Shown: positions 21,426-35,663 of the stretch, piece after piece
How positions within the stretch are numbered: the stretch's first letter is position 1
Layout: each line of letters starts with the position of its first letter
Source: Haloarcula marina
GTDB taxonomy: Archaea > Halobacteriota > Halobacteria > Halobacteriales > Haloarculaceae
Length of the DNA stretch: 64,000 nucleotides
Assembly: GCF_024218775.1 (NCBI RefSeq)
Contig: NZ_CP100404.1
Location: 2,914,001 to 2,978,000, forward strand
Reading direction: 5' to 3'
Notes under the pieces: generated by a model
What the model was told of the DNA's origin: nothing
The model's input: only the letters and a program-made list of their open reading frames with translations
The model's database searches: none
Made by a program: the position numbers and the translations under genes

Positions 21426-22670
21426 CTACGGTCTGCCGACGCCGGCGTACCGCAAGCCGGCCGCCCGGATGGCGTCCGCATCAAGCACGTTCCGTCCGTC
21501 GACGACGACCTCAACGCCCCTGTCGGCCAATCGTTCCGGATCGAGTCCGCGGAACGCCTCGTGGTCTGTGACGAGGACAACGGCGTCAACCGGTTGATAT
21601 GGTGACTCGACCGTCGATTCGGAGGGCAGCAGCGGGTCGTACGTGTGTATGCTGACGTCGTAAGTCTCCAGTGCAGTCCGGATCGGGAAGTACGGGCTGT
21701 TCCGCGTGTCCGGGATATCGGGCTTGAACGCCTTGCCCAGAAGCAGCACCGATGCATGCTGGGGGAGCCGACCCGACCGAACCAGATAATGGATAGTCTT
21801 GTCGGCGACGTACCGTGGCATCTTATCGTTGATTTCCCGGGCTGTCTCTAGGAAGCGGCTATTCAGGTCTTTCGAGGTTGCCTTCTCGATGAGGAAGTAC
21901 GGGTCAATGGGGATGCAGTGCCCCCCGACGCCTGCGCCGGGCGAGAACCGCGTGAAGCCGAACGGCTTGGTATCCGCGGCGTCGAGAACCTCGGTCGTAT
22001 CGATGCCGAGTTGCTCCAACGTCGTCGCGATCTCGTTGACGAACGCAATATTGATGTCGCGGTACGCATTCTCGATTATCTTCGAGGCCGCTGCTGCGGC
22101 CGTCGAGGAGACGGGGTGGATGGACGCATCCAAGAGCCGCTCGTAAAAAGTCACCGCGGCGTCAAGCCCGCTGTCATTGTCGGCGCCGACGACCCGGGGA
22201 ATCTCGGCGAGCGACCACTCGTCGTTTCCGGGGTCAATACGCTCGGGAGCATGTGCCAGTTGGACATCTTGACCGGGCACGTGACCGAGATCCTCGAAGG
22301 CTGGAGCGACAATGTCCGAGACGGTCCCCGGGGGTATCGTCGACTCGACGACGACGAGTGTCCCACCAGGAGACTCCGGTAGCCCGGTAGCCACCGTCTC
22401 ACAGACAGCTTGGAGCGCCGAGAGGTCGACGGAGAACGAAGAATCGATTGGTGTCGGGACGGTGACAACGACTGTGTCGGCGCCCGTGACGGCAGCAGCC
22501 CCGTCAGTCGTTGCAGTGAACCGCTCGGAGGTGGTGAGCGGAGCGTCTTGGGCCGCCTGGACGACGGTCGAGTCGGTGTCGACACCAGTAACCTCGAATC
22601 CTCGTTCGCTTGCCAGCATAGCGACCTCGCTGCCGACGTATCCGAGCCCGAAGACAGCTAGCCGTCGCAT
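21426..22670 (-). CDS. Nucleotide-sugar 6-dehydrogenase (WecC/WbpA type)
   Basis: The 414-residue enzyme has the UDP-glucose/GDP-mannose dehydrogenase layout. The NAD motif is GLGYVG at residues 8-13. A lysine-asparagine helix ASKIIENAYRDINIAFVNE follows near residue 196, and the catalytic cysteine is Cys252 in GVGGHCIPIDPYF. The IPIDPY version of this motif is typical for UDP-N-acetyl-glucosamine or -mannosamine dehydrogenases rather than UDP-glucose dehydrogenase (FPKD). LLLGKAFKPDIPDTRNSP marks the C-terminal domain. It oxidises C6 to a carboxylate, giving an acidic amino sugar. The sequence shows no intein, unlike the second dehydrogenase in this window. Confidence 0.87.
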   Translation of the reverse strand: MRRLAVFGLGYVGSEVAMLASERGFEVTGVDTDSTVVQAAQDAPLTTSERFTATTDGAAAVTGADTVVVTVPTPIDSSFSVDLSALQAVCETVATGLPESPGGTLVVVESTIPPGTVSDIVAPAFEDLGHVPGQDVQLAHAPERIDPGNDEWSLAEIPRVVGADNDSGLDAAVTFYERLLDASIHPVSSTAAAAASKIIENAYRDINIAFVNEIATTLEQLGIDTTEVLDAADTKPFGFTRFSPGAGVGGHCIPIDPYFLIEKATSKDLNSRFLETAREINDKMPRYVADKTIHYLVRSGRLPQHASVLLLGKAFKPDIPDTRNSPYFPIRTALETYDVSIHTYDPLLPSESTVESPYQPVDAVVLVTDHEAFRGLDPERLADRGVEVVVDGRNVLDADAIRAAGLRYAGVGRP

Positions 22671-28647: not shown

Positions 28648-30429
28648 CTACTTGTGGTGCCGATAGAGCGACGAGTACAGTCCATCCTGACCCATGAGTT
28701 CATCGTGGTTACCTGATTCCAGCATCTTCCCGTCCTCCATCACGTGGATCACATCGGCGTTCGTCACGGTCGAGAGACGGTGGGCGACAACGACGAGCGC
28801 GTAGTTGTTGTCCATGGACTCTATACCGGCTTGGACATCGTTCTCGGAAATGGAGTCCAAGTCGCTGGTCGCCTCGTCGAGCACCAAGATATCCGGGTCC
28901 TCAAGGATGGACCGAGCAATCGCCACGCGCTGGCGCTGGCCGCCGGAGAGGCGGACGCCGTCCTCACCGAGTTCTGTGTCCAGTCCATCGGGGAGAGACG
29001 GGAAGAATTCGTCGACATTCGAGATTGCACACGCCTGCTTGATCTCCTCTTCGGTCGCATCTCGGTTGCCGATCGTCAGATTGTACCGGAGCGTGTCACT
29101 GAACAGGAATGGTTTTTGGCGGACAATCGACACATGGTCGCGCCACGCGTCGATCCGAAACTCGCTGATCGGTCTGTCCTCCACCAGAATCTCGCCAGTG
29201 TCAGGTTCGTACAGTCGGGCAAGCAGGGAGACGATGGTCGACTTGCCCGCACCGGAGGGACCGACGAAGGCGACGAAATCGCCGCGTTCGAACTCGAAAG
29301 AGACGGTATCGAGGACCTGTGTACCGTCGCTATAGGTGAACGACACCTCGTCGAATTTGACACCGGAGACGGTCTCCGGCGGTGTCTGAGTGCCGTCACC
29401 CCGCTCCGATCGTGCCTCCAATCGTTCGGTAAACTCCTGCAACCGGACGAGATGGGGGAGGTTCCCCTGTGCCTTGTAAAACGTGTTGCTCAGCGTGCTG
29501 ACCCGGGGAATCAGTCGGAACATCGCGAACAAGAACACAGCGAGACTCCCCAGCGACAGCGACGTGAACCGCAGGGAGACATAGATCAGCGAGAAAATAG
29601 TCAGCACACCAATCAATTGATAGAAACTCGCGATCGCGTTCTGATTGCGCCGGAGTGTAATCGTAGACTCGGTGTACTGGTCAATGGCGTTCGAAAACCG
29701 GTCATCAAGTTCGTCAATTAGCCCGAAGGTCTTGACATCGCGCGCGCCTTGGATGCCGGCCTGGACCACCGACTGTATCCGCTCATGCCCGTCCGCGACG
29801 CGGTCACCGGCGGAGTAGCCAGATTCAAGCCGTGTCCGGAACACGTAGGTGCTGATACCGAACAGAATACCAGAGCCAATCGCCAGAGTGGGCGCAATCA
29901 CCACTGCAAGGGCAGCATACATCAGGCACATCGTCCCGAGTTCAAACAGCCGAACGACTTGATTAATCGTCGACCCTGCGTAGTCCGCCTGTTTGATGAT
30001 CGCGTTCAGCATCTCGTCGGACCCGTACTCTTCGAAATAGCTGATTTCGGCATCCAGTGCGGCGCGGTAGCCCCGCTGTTGAAGATGGCGAATGTAGGTC
30101 GTTTCAAGAATGGCCCGGAGCCACGCTACGAGAAATGTCGACCCGTAGCGCAAAACCATAACGAACCCGATACCAAGCATAATCGTCTCAAGCGTGAAGG
30201 GGACCCCCAGTGTCTCGTAAGCCGTTCTGAACACCTCAATTAGACGGCTCTTACCCGCACTATCGCCACGTGCAGTCTGGATGACGGGAACAATGAACCC
30301 GATTCCGATACCCTCAAGAAACGCGGTCGCGACTCCGAGGCTGAAGACAACGATGATGGTCCGGGGCCGAAATTGAACGACATTGAACAGCGCGCGGAGT
30401 TTGCTCCGGAACGAGGGGGGAGTGTGCAT
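28648..30429 (-). CDS. ABC transporter with fused membrane and ATPase domains (flippase-like)
   Basis: The 593-residue protein is a half-transporter. Residues 1-330 contain about six membrane segments, and the C-terminal ATPase has Walker A GPSGAGKST (390-398), the signature LSGGQ (494-498), Walker B ILVLDEAT with Asp518-Glu519 and the switch His550. It would work as a homodimer. The layout matches MsbA- and PglK-type exporters that flip lipids or lipid-linked oligosaccharides, and its place among glycosyltransferases supports a glycan flippase. A second candidate flippase of the Wzx type lies at 49379. The gene converges with the large sulfatase-like gene, 29 nt away. Confidence 0.87.
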   Translation of the reverse strand: MHTPPSFRSKLRALFNVVQFRPRTIIVVFSLGVATAFLEGIGIGFIVPVIQTARGDSAGKSRLIEVFRTAYETLGVPFTLETIMLGIGFVMVLRYGSTFLVAWLRAILETTYIRHLQQRGYRAALDAEISYFEEYGSDEMLNAIIKQADYAGSTINQVVRLFELGTMCLMYAALAVVIAPTLAIGSGILFGISTYVFRTRLESGYSAGDRVADGHERIQSVVQAGIQGARDVKTFGLIDELDDRFSNAIDQYTESTITLRRNQNAIASFYQLIGVLTIFSLIYVSLRFTSLSLGSLAVFLFAMFRLIPRVSTLSNTFYKAQGNLPHLVRLQEFTERLEARSERGDGTQTPPETVSGVKFDEVSFTYSDGTQVLDTVSFEFERGDFVAFVGPSGAGKSTIVSLLARLYEPDTGEILVEDRPISEFRIDAWRDHVSIVRQKPFLFSDTLRYNLTIGNRDATEEEIKQACAISNVDEFFPSLPDGLDTELGEDGVRLSGGQRQRVAIARSILEDPDILVLDEATSDLDSISENDVQAGIESMDNNYALVVVAHRLSTVTNADVIHVMEDGKMLESGNHDELMGQDGLYSSLYRHHK

Positions 30430-30645
30430 AGTTCTCAGAAGGCGGGTTTAATTAGGAAGTGGTTGGGAAAGCTAAAAGCTTTGTTTCCGGCATTCCCGGG
30501 TACAGCTTGAAGTCGGGCAAAACGAAACAAGTGCGTTACCCTGCTGGCAGGACACAGCGGAACATAAAATCAGTGAGGTCAGGAAGCAAAAAGGTGTTCC
30601 GGTAGGTATGGCACCGGACTGAGGACAGTATCAGCAGCCGTAAAC

Positions 30646-30654
30646 GTTAATTAA
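30646..30654 (+). promoter_or_regulatory. Candidate TATA element for the UDP-xylose-synthase-like gene
   Basis: The run gttaattaa lies 27 nt before the ATG at 30682. It suggests a leaderless transcript covering this gene and the glycosyltransferase after it. Confidence 0.45.
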
Positions 30655-30681
30655 CCATATACATTGGAATACTGTACTACG

Positions 30682-31614
30682 ATGGCCCGTATTCTCGTGA
30701 CAGGTGGTGCAGGGTTTCTCGGTGGATATCTCTGTGAGGCACTCCTTTCGGACGGACATCGCGTAATTTGTGTGGATAACTTCGGCAGTGGTCAGTACGA
30801 GAATGTCGAACATTTACGCGACAACGACCGCTTCGAAATAAAGGAACTAGACATCCGGGAGACAAATTCGTTTCCGGACGCCGACAGGATATTCCATCTC
30901 GCGTCCAGAGCCTCGCCCAAAGATTTCACGGAGTATCCAGTCCAAATCGCACTCACGAACACAATCGGCACCAGAAACGTCCTTGAACACGCCACAAGGT
31001 GTGGCGCACGCGTCCTCTATGCGTCCACAAGTGAGGTGTACGGTGAGCCAGAGGTCCACCCACAGCCCGAAACATACAACGGGAACGTGAATATCCGAGG
31101 CCCAAGGGGCTGCTACGACGAGTCAAAGCGATTCGGCGAGACACTGACTGTCGCCTATGAGAAAGAGTACGATGTCGACGTTCGAACTGTTCGGATATTC
31201 AATACTTATGGCCCACAGATGCGACCGGACGACGGCCGGGTTGTTCCGACATTCGTGACACAGGCACTCCAGGGGAATGATCTGACTGTGTACGGTGACG
31301 GAACGCAGACACGGAGTTTCTGCTACGTCTCGGACATGATTGCTGGCCTGCGAACGTTCATGCGGACCGACGGATTCCAAGGCGACGTACTCAACATGGG
31401 TAACGACAACGAAATTAGCATTGAGACATTGGCAGAGACAATAATCGAACTTACCGGTACCGAGAGCTCGATACAGTACATGCCGCTTCCAGACGACGAC
31501 CCGTCACGGCGGCAACCGGATCTCGAAAAAACGAGATACAAGCTGGACTGGGAACCAGCAGTGTCCCTCGAAGAAGGCCTGCGAAAGACGCTTGAGTACT
31601 ATCGGGACTCGTGA
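30682..31614 (+). CDS. UDP-glucuronate decarboxylase-like SDR (UDP-xylose synthase type)
   Basis: The start at ATG 30682 gives 310 residues, beginning [20 protein letters not shown]. The active-site region has [18 protein letters not shown] and the catalytic pair Tyr145-x3-Lys149 in [11 protein letters not shown], which matches the YDExKR motif of UDP-xylose synthase. Then come [19 protein letters not shown] and [16 protein letters not shown], also typical. The family decarboxylates UDP-glucuronate to UDP-xylose. The substrate would be supplied by the UDP-glucose dehydrogenase encoded at 32774-35491, on the other side of one glycosyltransferase gene. The two stop and start codons to the next gene are 7 nt apart. 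Confidence 0.82.
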
Positions 31615-31621
31615 GCTACTG

Positions 31622-32749
31622 ATGAGTATCCGGGTCGGTATCGACGCACGGTTTCTTGGCCGGACAGGAATCGGACGGTATGTGAAGAACCTGCTGCAGT
31701 CGTTGCCGACAGTCGTCAACGTCGTTGCGTTCGTGACTAGTGAGACAATAGCCACGGCTGAGCGCGCCAGACCGTCAGCGGAGACAAGACGTGTGTATGC
31801 GGACCCGTTTAGCCCACTCGAACAGATGACGCTGCCGGCACAGTTGTATCGATCACGTATCGACTGTTTTCACGCCACCCAGTTCAACATACCTCTCATC
31901 TGGACCGGTCCCCTAGTGACGACGATTCACGACTGTGCGTACGACCACTTTCCATCCGAATTCGGCGATAGAGGGCCCCTAGCCAGACAGTACTACCGGT
32001 CGATGATGGCGCGGGCTGTCAGACAGTCTGACACGGTTGTCGCCGTCTCCGAAAGCACGAAGCGAGACCTAGCTTCCTTCTACGATGCCGACCCCGACGA
32101 CGTTCAGACCGTCTACGAGGGTGTTTCGCCGTCGGAATTCGGCAATTCCACCGGTCAACCGGCAACCGTCAATGGCGCGTATCTACTGTACGTGGGGTCC
32201 AACCGACCACGAAAGAACATCGAGAATCTTCTGCAGGGGGTGTCGATAGCGAACGAGAAACGTGCCGAACCGATTCCACTCGTCATGGCCGGAGAATATA
32301 ATGACAGGTTCGGTGACCTCAAAGAGGTGATCCACCGCTGGGGATTGGAAGCCGTCGTCCACCGTCCGGGCTACGTTGAGGACGCGGAACTTGCTCGGCT
32401 CTATGCCCATGCCACTGCATTCGTCTTCCCATCTCTATACGAGGGTTTCGGACTCCCTCTACTGGAAGCGATGGCCGCCGGAACGCCCGTCATCGCGGCG
32501 GATAGGGCGTCAATCCCAGAGGTGTGTGGTGAGGCCGCCAGATACATCACACCCACCGACCCAAACAGTATCGCCGACGGAATCATTGAAGTTACCAGTT
32601 CCGAGCGGCTCCGGGCGGAGCTGCGTCGGAAAGGTTATAATCAGGTCAATCGGTTCGACTGGGCGACGATGGGAAACAGACTCTCCAACATCTACTACAG
32701 CGCGGCCGGCTCGGATCAAGGGACCTGTTACGACAACGACCGCCAATAG
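31622..32749 (+). CDS. GT4 family glycosyltransferase
   Basis: The 375-residue protein starts at ATG 31622 with MSIRVGIDARFLGRTGIGRY, a form of the N-terminal glycine loop seen in mannosyl- and related GT4 enzymes. The linker region reads YLLYVGSNRPRKNIENLLQG, and the donor motif is SLYEGFGLPLLEAMAAGTPV. It follows the UDP-xylose-synthase-like gene by a few bases, so it may use the product of that enzyme, which is inference from position only. It converges with the dehydrogenase gene that carries the intein. Confidence 0.87.
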   Translation: MSIRVGIDARFLGRTGIGRYVKNLLQSLPTVVNVVAFVTSETIATAERARPSAETRRVYADPFSPLEQMTLPAQLYRSRIDCFHATQFNIPLIWTGPLVTTIHDCAYDHFPSEFGDRGPLARQYYRSMMARAVRQSDTVVAVSESTKRDLASFYDADPDDVQTVYEGVSPSEFGNSTGQPATVNGAYLLYVGSNRPRKNIENLLQGVSIANEKRAEPIPLVMAGEYNDRFGDLKEVIHRWGLEAVVHRPGYVEDAELARLYAHATAFVFPSLYEGFGLPLLEAMAAGTPVIAADRASIPEVCGEAARYITPTDPNSIADGIIEVTSSERLRAELRRKGYNQVNRFDWATMGNRLSNIYYSAAGSDQGTCYDNDRQ

Positions 32750-32773: not shown

Positions 32774-35491
32774 CTACCACGTCAGCCCTTCGTACGTAAT
32801 CCCCTCACGCCGCCCCACAATCCGCCGTCCGTCGACCACGACCGGGTCGGCCATCGCGTCGAACTCGTCGTCCAAGGCCGCGAACTCGTCCCAGTCGGTC
32901 ACCACCACCGCGCCCGATGCCCCATCCAGTGCCTCACCAGCAGACTCTGCGTACTCGACGTCGGGATAGCGCTCGCGCATATTCTCGGTGGCGACGGGGT
33001 CGTAGGCTACCACGTCGGCCCCCCGCTCTTGGAGGCCTTCGATGACCGGCACGGCCCGCGTGTTCCGGATGTCGTCGGTCCCGGGCTTGAACGCGAGGCC
33101 AAGGACGGCGACGCGCTTGCCCTGCACGTCGACGTGGTCGTCCAGTAGCGAGAGCAGGCGTTCGGGTTGGGCGTCGTTCAACTCGACGGCCGCCGACAGC
33201 ACCGCGGGGTCGTAGCCGCGTTCGCGGGCGGCGGCGATGATGGCGTCGGTGTCTTTCGGGAAGCAGTTGTGGACCACCAGTCCGTCCGTCGTCACGAACG
33301 TGTGATTATCCTTTACTTCCAGTGAATACACCTCGGTCGATGCATCGTTAGTATCGATATCACGGACCTCGACTGTCGTGTGAGTGCCCCCATCAGCATG
33401 CCCCGTCGGTTTGATATCTCGGTCGTAGGCGTCAAGACGTTGCTGGATGGCTTGTTGGTCTGCAGGGAGGAACATGTCTTTCAGCATCGCAATCTGTCGT
33501 TTCGAGCTCACACGGAGGAAGTGGGCTGGCCTCGTGGATTTCGCCGACTGAGAGGTCTTGTAGCTGGGTACGATACCGATACTGTGAAGGAGAAACTGCA
33601 TCCCCTGAATTAACTCCTCACTGACGGACCCGTAATCGTACACGACAGCGTTAGAATGGCTTGTGTATTCGATGTGTCCGTCGCCCCGGAACAGGCCAGA
33701 CAAGAGCTCTTTCCGATGGCCGATTGGTTCCTGATAGGCGATGTCTGGAATCGCTGCTGTGTATGATCCCGTTCCACAACCGAGCCATTCGAGTAGGTAG
33801 GCGAAGACACGGCTCGAAACCTTGATTTGCGTCGCCGTCTCCTGTGTCTCGGTCCGGTATCGGATTCCGAGTCCCTCGTAGAACGACTCGGCGTCCGAGA
33901 CATACTCGTCTTCCTTAGATGGGTGGAAGCTCAGGAAAACTCGCTTTCTGGCGGTAGAGCCGCGTCCCGAGTTGTCTTCGTTGATGTGGCCTTCGCTCAG
34001 GTAGTAGCCGATGAACCGCCAGAACGCGTCGTCTGCAGTGATGACCGCGGGAACGTACGTTTGTCCACCGCCGACCGTCGTGTATATCGACAGATCCTCG
34101 CGGCCAAACGGTAACTCCTCTTCGTATTCGAGGAACACATCCAGTGGGAGGTAGTTACTCCGAACGAGGTCGTGAAGTTTCGAGTAGTCGAACTGTCGGT
34201 TATACTCAGCCAACACGTCACGGAACTCGTCATCGATGGTCTGGAGTTCGAACGACGGTTTCAGGTAGACGTTCGAATTATCGAAGCGATCAGCGGAAGC
34301 CACGAGTTCGAGTAGGTCTATCGCTCCGACGGGGTCTTCCGGCAGGCTCGTTTGTACCGGAAGCTTGTCACCGGACGACAACGTGCTAGCCTCACAGACT
34401 GTTGGTTTACCGCTCTCGATGGCCAGCATCGGATGGTCCCGAGTGACGGTAACCTCTTTATTCATTTTCGTCCGGATCGTATAGAGTTCGTCTTCGTACG
34501 GCCGACGTGTCGCTGCCTCGACCGGCTTGAACTCGAATGACCCGTTCTTGCCACAGCTGAGTACGGAGACATCTGCGACAGTGTCACCCGTAACGTACCG
34601 GTCGAAGAACTCCGCGAGGGTCAGGAGTTTGGTACCTTCTTGATCCTTTGCCATCACTCGCTGGTCACCAGTGAGACAACTGCCGCCCCACCCCACGCCG
34701 CTGCGCAGGAACTGCTCGCCGATGCGGTCGTCTAAGCCGATGGCGTCGGCCACCTCGTAGGCGTCGACGCCGAACTCCTTGCAGACGTTCCCGATGTCGT
34801 TGATGAGGCTGACCTTCGAGGCGAGGAAGGTGTTGTTGGCGTACTTTATCATCTCGGCCTCGGCGATGCCCGTCTCGACGACGGGGACGTCGCCGTCGGC
34901 GGCCTCGCGAAGGGGGGCGTAGAGGTCGTGAAGCAGGGCGAACGCCCGGTCGTCGTCGGCCCCGAAGACGAGTTTGTCGGGGTTCAGGAAGTCTTCGACG
35001 GCCGTACCCTCGCGCTGGAACTCGGGGTTCGAGGCGACAAGGAAGTCCTCGCCGCGGGTCAGGCCCGATTCGGCGATGCGCGGGGCGAGCACCTCGTCGG
35101 TCGTCGTCGGAATCACGGTGGACTTCGTGACGACGAGGTGGGGGCCGTCGTCGCCGTCGCCCGCCGCCAGCGCTTCCCCGACGCTTGCCGCGCCCGCTTC
35201 CATGTACTGGAGGTCGATACTGCCGTCCTCGTTGGAGGGGGTCGGCAAGGCCAGCATCGTCAAGTCCGTCTCGCGGACCACGTCGTAGTCGGTGGTCGCC
35301 CGCAGTCGCTCGCCGCCGTGTTCGGCGACGAGTTCGTCCAGTCCCGGTTCGTGGATGGGCGACTCACCGGCGTTGACGGCGTCGACGATGGCCTCGTCGA
35401 TGTCGATAGTCGTGACCTCGTGCCCCAGGTCGGCGAGACACGCCGCGACGGTCGTCCCGACGTAGCCGCTCCCGACGATGCTGACGTTCAT
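32774..35491 (-). CDS. UDP-glucose 6-dehydrogenase containing an intein
   Basis: The open frame encodes 905 residues from ATG 35491; the seven extra residues of the longer frame are not family-like. Residues 1-271 and 743-905 form a normal dehydrogenase of about 434 residues: GSGYVG at 7-12, SNPEFQREGTA, EMIKYANNTFLASKVS and, at the splice point, SGVGWGGS followed by Cys743-FPKD. The catalytic cysteine is the first residue after the inserted element. The domain between (272-742) is a protein-splicing intein. The mature enzyme oxidises UDP-glucose to UDP-glucuronate for acidic glycans or for UDP-xylose. The active enzyme can only form after splicing. Confidence 0.93.
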   Translation of the reverse strand: MNVSIVGSGYVGTTVAACLADLGHEVTTIDIDEAIVDAVNAGESPIHEPGLDELVAEHGGERLRATTDYDVVRETDLTMLALPTPSNEDGSIDLQYMEAGAASVGEALAAGDGDDGPHLVVTKSTVIPTTTDEVLAPRIAESGLTRGEDFLVASNPEFQREGTAVEDFLNPDKLVFGADDDRAFALLHDLYAPLREAADGDVPVVETGIAEAEMIKYANNTFLASKVSLINDIGNVCKEFGVDAYEVADAIGLDDRIGEQFLRSGVGWGGSCLTGDQRVMAKDQEGTKLLTLAEFFDRYVTGDTVADVSVLSCGKNGSFEFKPVEAATRRPYEDELYTIRTKMNKEVTVTRDHPMLAIESGKPTVCEASTLSSGDKLPVQTSLPEDPVGAIDLLELVASADRFDNSNVYLKPSFELQTIDDEFRDVLAEYNRQFDYSKLHDLVRSNYLPLDVFLEYEEELPFGREDLSIYTTVGGGQTYVPAVITADDAFWRFIGYYLSEGHINEDNSGRGSTARKRVFLSFHPSKEDEYVSDAESFYEGLGIRYRTETQETATQIKVSSRVFAYLLEWLGCGTGSYTAAIPDIAYQEPIGHRKELLSGLFRGDGHIEYTSHSNAVVYDYGSVSEELIQGMQFLLHSIGIVPSYKTSQSAKSTRPAHFLRVSSKRQIAMLKDMFLPADQQAIQQRLDAYDRDIKPTGHADGGTHTTVEVRDIDTNDASTEVYSLEVKDNHTFVTTDGLVVHNCFPKDTDAIIAAARERGYDPAVLSAAVELNDAQPERLLSLLDDHVDVQGKRVAVLGLAFKPGTDDIRNTRAVPVIEGLQERGADVVAYDPVATENMRERYPDVEYAESAGEALDGASGAVVVTDWDEFAALDDEFDAMADPVVVDGRRIVGRREGITYEGLTW
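33266..34678 (-). mobile_element. Intein with LAGLIDADG homing endonuclease, at the catalytic Cys of the dehydrogenase
   Basis: This in-frame element of 471 residues begins with Cys (CLTGDQRVM, splicing block A), has TVTRDHPML with the TxxH block B at intein residues 77-85, and ends VVHN followed by extein Cys. Two LAGLIDADG-type motifs, FIGYYLSEGH (222-231) and LLSGLFRGDGH (325-335), keep the acidic residues needed for DNA cutting, so a dodecapeptide homing endonuclease may be active. The YSLEVKDNHTFVTTDG block F precedes the end. The base composition is visibly closer to neutral than the GC-rich exteins, in line with horizontal spread. The insertion disrupts the most conserved codons of the host gene. 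Confidence 0.93.
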
Positions 35492-35663
35492 TGAGCGTGG
35501 GTTGGCCACCACCCTACTTGAGAACTCGGGTCCTTCGGAACGGTAGAGACGGCGTCAGCGTGGCTGGCCGACCTTTTGAAATCGCCCGCACGAGCGGTCG
35601 CCTACCGGCCGATAGCCACCCCATAACAACACCCCGGTCTGACGGAAGCCGAATCAGCAGACA

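Follow-up and report, generated by a model that had tools for sequence, protein, structure and literature searches.

A full-length intein of the udp allele directly before the catalytic cysteine of the AglM-type UDP-glucose dehydrogenase of Haloarcula marina

Background

What interrupts the gene for UDP-glucose 6-dehydrogenase (UGDH) in Haloarcula marina directly before the codon of its catalytic cysteine, and does the interrupting element still move? An earlier note on the window (the whole stretch of DNA analysed here, 64,000 nucleotides) had placed an intein with a homing endonuclease at this point, had mentioned a UGDH intein in Methanocaldococcus jannaschii, and had suggested that splicing could switch the production of surface glycans.

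Inteins of this host gene have been described. Soucy et al. (2014) defined a 'udp' allele in the UDP-glucose 6-dehydrogenase of seven Halobacteria, with further carriers in six other Euryarchaeota (M. jannaschii, a second Methanocaldococcus, Methanococcus aeolicus, Methanothermococcus okinawensis, Methanotorris igneus and Thermococcus gammatolerans) and two bacteria (Dictyoglomus and a Fervidibacteria bacterium) (PMC4071816). In their judgement udp is an old allele that has only rarely been transferred over long distances, and they listed the udp inteins of Halobacteria as a monophyletic group and M. jannaschii as one of the further carriers (PMC4071816). The M. jannaschii intein mentioned in the earlier note (NP_248048.1) thus belongs to one allele with those of the seven Halobacteria; the identity of the site holds by the authors' allele definition, as the text gives no sequences (PMC4071816). 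The intein in the window agrees with the udp inteins of Halobacteria and M. jannaschii in host gene, organism class and allele by position, with no difference of kind, and is a further member of this described allele rather than something new in kind. What we add is its distribution in the genus Haloarcula, at least two acquisitions there, purifying selection on the endonuclease region, and a nanohaloarchaeal copy.

Results and discussion

A dehydrogenase gene interrupted at its catalytic cysteine

The open reading frame lies on the minus strand and encodes 912 amino acids from a GTG start, or 905 if translation begins with the ATG at 35491; on the plus strand, the stretch 32774-35491 contains several stops. 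Its parts, in window coordinates, are as follows.

32774..35512, minus strand: AglM-type UDP-glucose 6-dehydrogenase gene with intein (open reading frame; NF041297, 749 bits)
34679..35512, minus strand: N-extein, NAD-binding domain and central domain up to GVGWGGS (sequence, Pfam profiles)
33266..34678, minus strand: intein, 471 codons (sequence, profiles, homologues)
33263..33265, minus strand: Cys+1 codon, the presumed splicing nucleophile and the catalytic cysteine of the enzyme (invariance, PMC4794789)
32774..33265, minus strand: C-extein, starting with the catalytic cysteine (CFPKD), stop codon included (sequence, profiles, PMC4794789)

The limits that the earlier note had given for the intein proved exact; the strand, absent from it, is added here. 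Removal of the insert in silico leaves a dehydrogenase of 441 (GTG) or 434 (ATG) amino acids and restores the active-site sequence GGSCFPKD. The host protein passes the equivalog model of the AglM UDP-glucose 6-dehydrogenase (NF041297, 749.1 bits, cut-off 670), and its closest solved relatives, the UDP-glucose dehydrogenases 3vtf and 4a7p, align across GGSCFPKD with no insert. The cysteine that follows the insert is invariant in the solved UGDHs and in 25 genes of the genus with an empty site, and it is, as the earlier note had it, the catalytic residue of the family, namely its covalent catalyst, which belongs to a set of 18 invariant residues (Cys260 in the Streptococcus pyogenes UGDH, PMC4794789).

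Could two separate genes, or a misassembly, have been read as one frame that holds no splicing element? We found nothing that favours this, and its probability is negligible, since the 912-codon frame is uninterrupted and the same arrangement recurs in named isolates and in 20 relatives that were sequenced independently. The two-gene misreading that the earlier note had weighed is thereby ruled out.

Five full-length nucleotide-sugar dehydrogenases, the interrupted gene included, are encoded in the H. marina genome. The other four were considered as a duplicate AglM that could act as a backup and were rejected, because they carry the GGHC signature, which is described as typical for UDP-N-acetyl-mannosamine dehydrogenases (PMC4794789), and reach only 168-177 bits in the AglM model, whose cut-off is 670. 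Judged by these scores, the interrupted gene is the only AglM-type UDP-glucose dehydrogenase of the genome, so a cell that does not splice should lack an AglM-type enzyme.

The window also contains a neighbourhood resembling those for surface glycans (21426-22670 on the minus strand, and 28648-32749), where a second nucleotide-sugar dehydrogenase, of the GGHC type, is accompanied by an ABC exporter similar to MsbA, a sugar epimerase/dehydratase and a glycosyltransferase.

Anatomy of the intein

Within the 471 residues we detected the splicing domain in two parts and, between them, an endonuclease.

34334..34678, minus strand: splicing (HINT) domain, N-terminal part, residues ~1-115, limits approximate (TIGR01445, model)
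34433..34444, minus strand: block-B TxxH motif, T79 R D H82 (T79 and H82 invariant in 21 copies)
33389..34333, minus strand: inserted region with LAGLIDADG endonuclease, residues ~116-430, limits approximate (PF14528 at 324-396; model against I-DmoI and inteins)
33986..34015, minus strand: LAGLIDADG-type motif 1, FIGYYLSEGH, acid E229 (invariant)
33674..33706, minus strand: LAGLIDADG-type motif 2, LLSGLFRGDGH, acid D333 (invariant)
33266..33388, minus strand: splicing domain, C-terminal part ending VVHN, limits approximate (TIGR01443; H470 and N471 invariant)

All the landmarks listed in the earlier note were recovered, in intein numbering C1, TRDH at 79-82, FIGYYLSEGH at 222-231, LLSGLFRGDGH at 325-335 and VVHN at 468-471, followed by the cysteine of CFPKD. 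Four profiles matched above their cut-offs: Intein_splicing (PF14890, 5.9e-15, 55.8 bits, cut-off 35.8) and LAGLIDADG_3 (PF14528, 5.2e-12, 46.3 bits, cut-off 22.5) from Pfam, and intein_Nterm (TIGR01445, 6.3e-13, 49.5 bits, cut-off 24.5) and intein_Cterm (TIGR01443, 2.8e-6, 27.4 bits, cut-off 15.6) from NCBIfam. The residues C1, T79, H82, E229, D333, H470 and N471 do not vary among the 21 haloarchaeal copies that were aligned (the window and 20 homologues), and the same seven are kept in more distant copies from a nanohaloarchaeon, Methanohalarchaeum, a Thermoplasmatota metagenome-assembled genome (MAG) and, twice, Omnitrophota MAGs.

An AlphaFold2 model of the intein (mean pLDDT 85.7) matched endonuclease-bearing inteins over residues 1-471 in Foldseek (2.7e-29 for PI-PkoII, 2cw7). 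In VIA-align it gave Z 36.0 against TliVMA (7qss; 2.5 A over 354 residues), 34.5 against PI-PkoII and 29.5 against PI-PfuI (1dq3), while the HINT fold was matched by mini-inteins (e.g., 7oec, Z 21.8, 2.0 A over 153 residues). PI-PkoII, TliVMA and PI-PfuI share with the udp intein the HINT splicing domain and the inserted LAGLIDADG endonuclease, but reside in other host proteins and are 17-19% identical to it in the structural alignments. Together, motifs, profiles and model support the reading of the insert as a large intein of class-1 type that includes a LAGLIDADG endonuclease with two motifs and is placed immediately before the catalytic cysteine. Its GC content is 55%, compared with 68% in each extein, and its third-position GC 66%, compared with 91% and 86% in the exteins, a drop that fits an element with a history different from that of the exteins.

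From this anatomy we infer that the precursor of 905-912 amino acids would splice itself into a dehydrogenase of 434-441 amino acids and a free 471-residue endonuclease, by means of Cys1, the block-B TxxH, the penultimate histidine, the terminal asparagine and Cys+1. Because the catalytic cysteine would itself be the Cys+1 nucleophile, a precursor that fails to splice should have no activity, and losing the element imprecisely should do harm. In intein-free cells the endonuclease would cut the empty site and repair would copy the intein in; the site itself stays conserved, since the active site is encoded there. We consider it very probable that this full-length udp intein, lying between GGS and the catalytic cysteine of the sole AglM-type enzyme, splices itself and homes by its endonuclease. 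The polB intein of Haloferax volcanii is likewise haloarchaeal and endowed with an endonuclease, and has been studied in vivo, although its host is DNA polymerase B (PMC3024317); we found no such in vivo experiment in the literature for the udp intein.

Distribution in Halobacteria

In a class-wide draw, the intein was identified in 19 of 391 genomes (E <= 1e-60), and a scan of named genomes added Halosimplex, Halorientalis, Halovenus, Halonotius, several Halorubrum, Haloarcula pellucida and others. All 21 haloarchaeal copies for which both junctions were read are inserted at the same codon (GWGGS/CFPKD) and are 469-475 amino acids long, with no mini-intein among them; the insertion codon is also identical in the loci L103, L106 and L107. 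The intein of a further copy (L090) has 467 amino acids. Within the genus Haloarcula, 30 of the 32 genomes encode AglM, one gene each. Five of these genes carry the intein and 25 have an intact empty site, where the reading is continuous (GWGGSCFPKD); a comparison with intein-free haloarchaeal genes had been proposed in the earlier note.

Two draft MAGs contain irregular copies: in L105 (2501-4036) part of the intein is scrambled and a stop falls in frame within it, and in L092 the frame breaks immediately ahead of the insertion site (near 2500), either of which could be an assembly error or decay. The record of Halobacterium salinarum DSM 3754 (L088 and L041) has a UGDH with the intein, and the H. 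salinarum protein VNG1048G is reported as intein-free with 426 amino acids (PMC5041007). Since the published VNG1048G primer mismatches the DSM 3754 record at 6 of 24 bases, we do not claim a contrast within the species; the intein-bearing record possibly reflects a gene replacement or a mislabelled record.

The H. marina genome encodes a second, distantly related intein (G000:C1:165965-167431, L148) in a frame of 1737 amino acids whose host resembles the DNA polymerase II large subunit. Two fragmented genomes of the same phylum (L112 and L113) also contain relatives of the udp intein, and the host in L112 resembles phosphoribosylformylglycinamidine synthase (PurL).

Horizontal movement within the genus

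The intein of the window (genome G000) is 82, 81, 80 and 70% identical to those of its four intein-bearing congeners, the values of 80-82% being those of G015, G008 and G024. The fourth, G029, has an intein only 69.6% identical to that of the window, yet its extein (92.6%) and rpoB (97.7%) are the most similar of the four. In the intein tree G029 groups with Halorientalis, and a Halosimplex intein falls with the other four inteins of the genus; a single clade of the five genus inteins is rejected by the AU test (p 2.85e-6), which implies that the intein was acquired at least twice in the genus. In the extein tree presence and absence are interleaved, and well-supported branches force at least five gains or losses. 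The trees thus indicate that the intein has moved horizontally, with at least two acquisitions within Haloarcula.

Traces of the transfers themselves were sought in two ways. We compared intein-plus and intein-minus congeners in their sharing of synonymous codons with foreign intein-bearing alleles, and found no significant excess within 10 codons of the site that would mark a co-conversion tract (permutation p 0.14), and, far away from it, a weak excess (p 0.03). A search for a vehicle returned no plasmid record that matches the intein, and only distant (24-28%) and partial matches to phages and viral contigs.

This distribution bears on the switch suggested in the earlier note. In a fuller form of that suggestion, the intein would have been domesticated and kept as a benefit to the host, with conditional splicing (by salt, redox or temperature) turning the production of UDP-glucuronate and surface glycans on and off. 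The position at the catalytic cysteine does make the enzyme dependent on splicing, H. marina has one AglM-type gene, and conditional splicing is known in other inteins (reviewed in PMC10663303). However, 25 of 30 congeners do without the intein, the genus acquired it at least twice, the haloarchaeal AglM enzymes studied biochemically are intein-free with 426-430 amino acids (PMC5041007), and the sequence has nothing that resembles a sensor. The suggestion finds no support here, and we regard such a switch as very improbable.

State of the endonuclease

Over ten pairs of inteins, omega was 0.03-0.11 in the endonuclease region and 0.08-0.16 in the splicing region; dS is at about 1 or above in most pairs, for which the values are rough, although the closer pairs (G310/G142, G063/G234 and G137/G114) agree. 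The ratios indicate purifying selection on the endonuclease that is about as strong as, or stronger than, that on the splicing region.

It could nevertheless be that only splicing works, the endonuclease being dead or decaying and inheritance now mostly vertical. Inteins without homing are, as far as we are aware, kept in many lineages generally; the inteins of the genus differ by ~18-20%, so that the last transfers among G000, G008, G015 and G024 were not recent; and the co-conversion test was negative. Decay should bring relaxed constraint and, in some lineages, mini-inteins, and neither is seen in the intact copies, where both catalytic acids are invariant, omega is low and no length has been lost; the horizontal acquisition in the tree likewise argues against it. 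We therefore consider a dead endonuclease unlikely, and the endonuclease of the udp intein probably still works.

Copies beyond the haloarchaea

The same intein is present at the same site of UGDH in Candidatus Nanohalarchaeota NHA25 (L103), on a contig of 1.03 Mb that carries its own rpoB. This intein is 59% identical to that of the window, whereas the extein is at most 50% identical to haloarchaeal ones and rpoB 49%. Within haloarchaea the mean divergence of the intein (33%) is ~2.5 times that of rpoB (13%). As inteins outpace rpoB in haloarchaea and the intein of L103 is nonetheless closer than its rpoB, vertical descent is very unlikely, and the nanohaloarchaeal copy implies a transfer between phyla. 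Some nanohaloarchaea live attached to haloarchaeal cells. The published list of udp carriers (PMC4071816) lacks the copies reported here from the nanohaloarchaeon, Methanohalarchaeum and Thermoplasmatota.

In two Omnitrophota MAGs (L108 and L109, 2501-3946) we observed a 32%-identical intein, which in L108 lies at the matching catalytic cysteine (GGHC) of a paralogous dehydrogenase, next to a UGDH gene that is intein-free.

Implications

The udp intein of H. marina is ordinary in kind and would illustrate active homing well. As a rule, inteins come to occupy those codons of important proteins that are most conserved; with the catalytic residue as splicing nucleophile, the active site would double as the homing target and guard the element against loss or escape. 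For annotation, the enzyme to be expected from such genes is one of 434-441 amino acids, not 905-912. As a tentative wider view, for which the case falls somewhat short of even, udp may be a long-lived and still-homing element that crossed between the phyla of haloarchaea and nanohaloarchaea because its target is the nearly unchangeable active site of UGDH. The nanohaloarchaeal copy may serve to mark gene flow that links haloarchaea with DPANN archaea, and sister species with empty and filled sites, independent acquisitions and a conserved endonuclease together would offer a convenient natural system in which to ask for how long such an endonuclease remains active.
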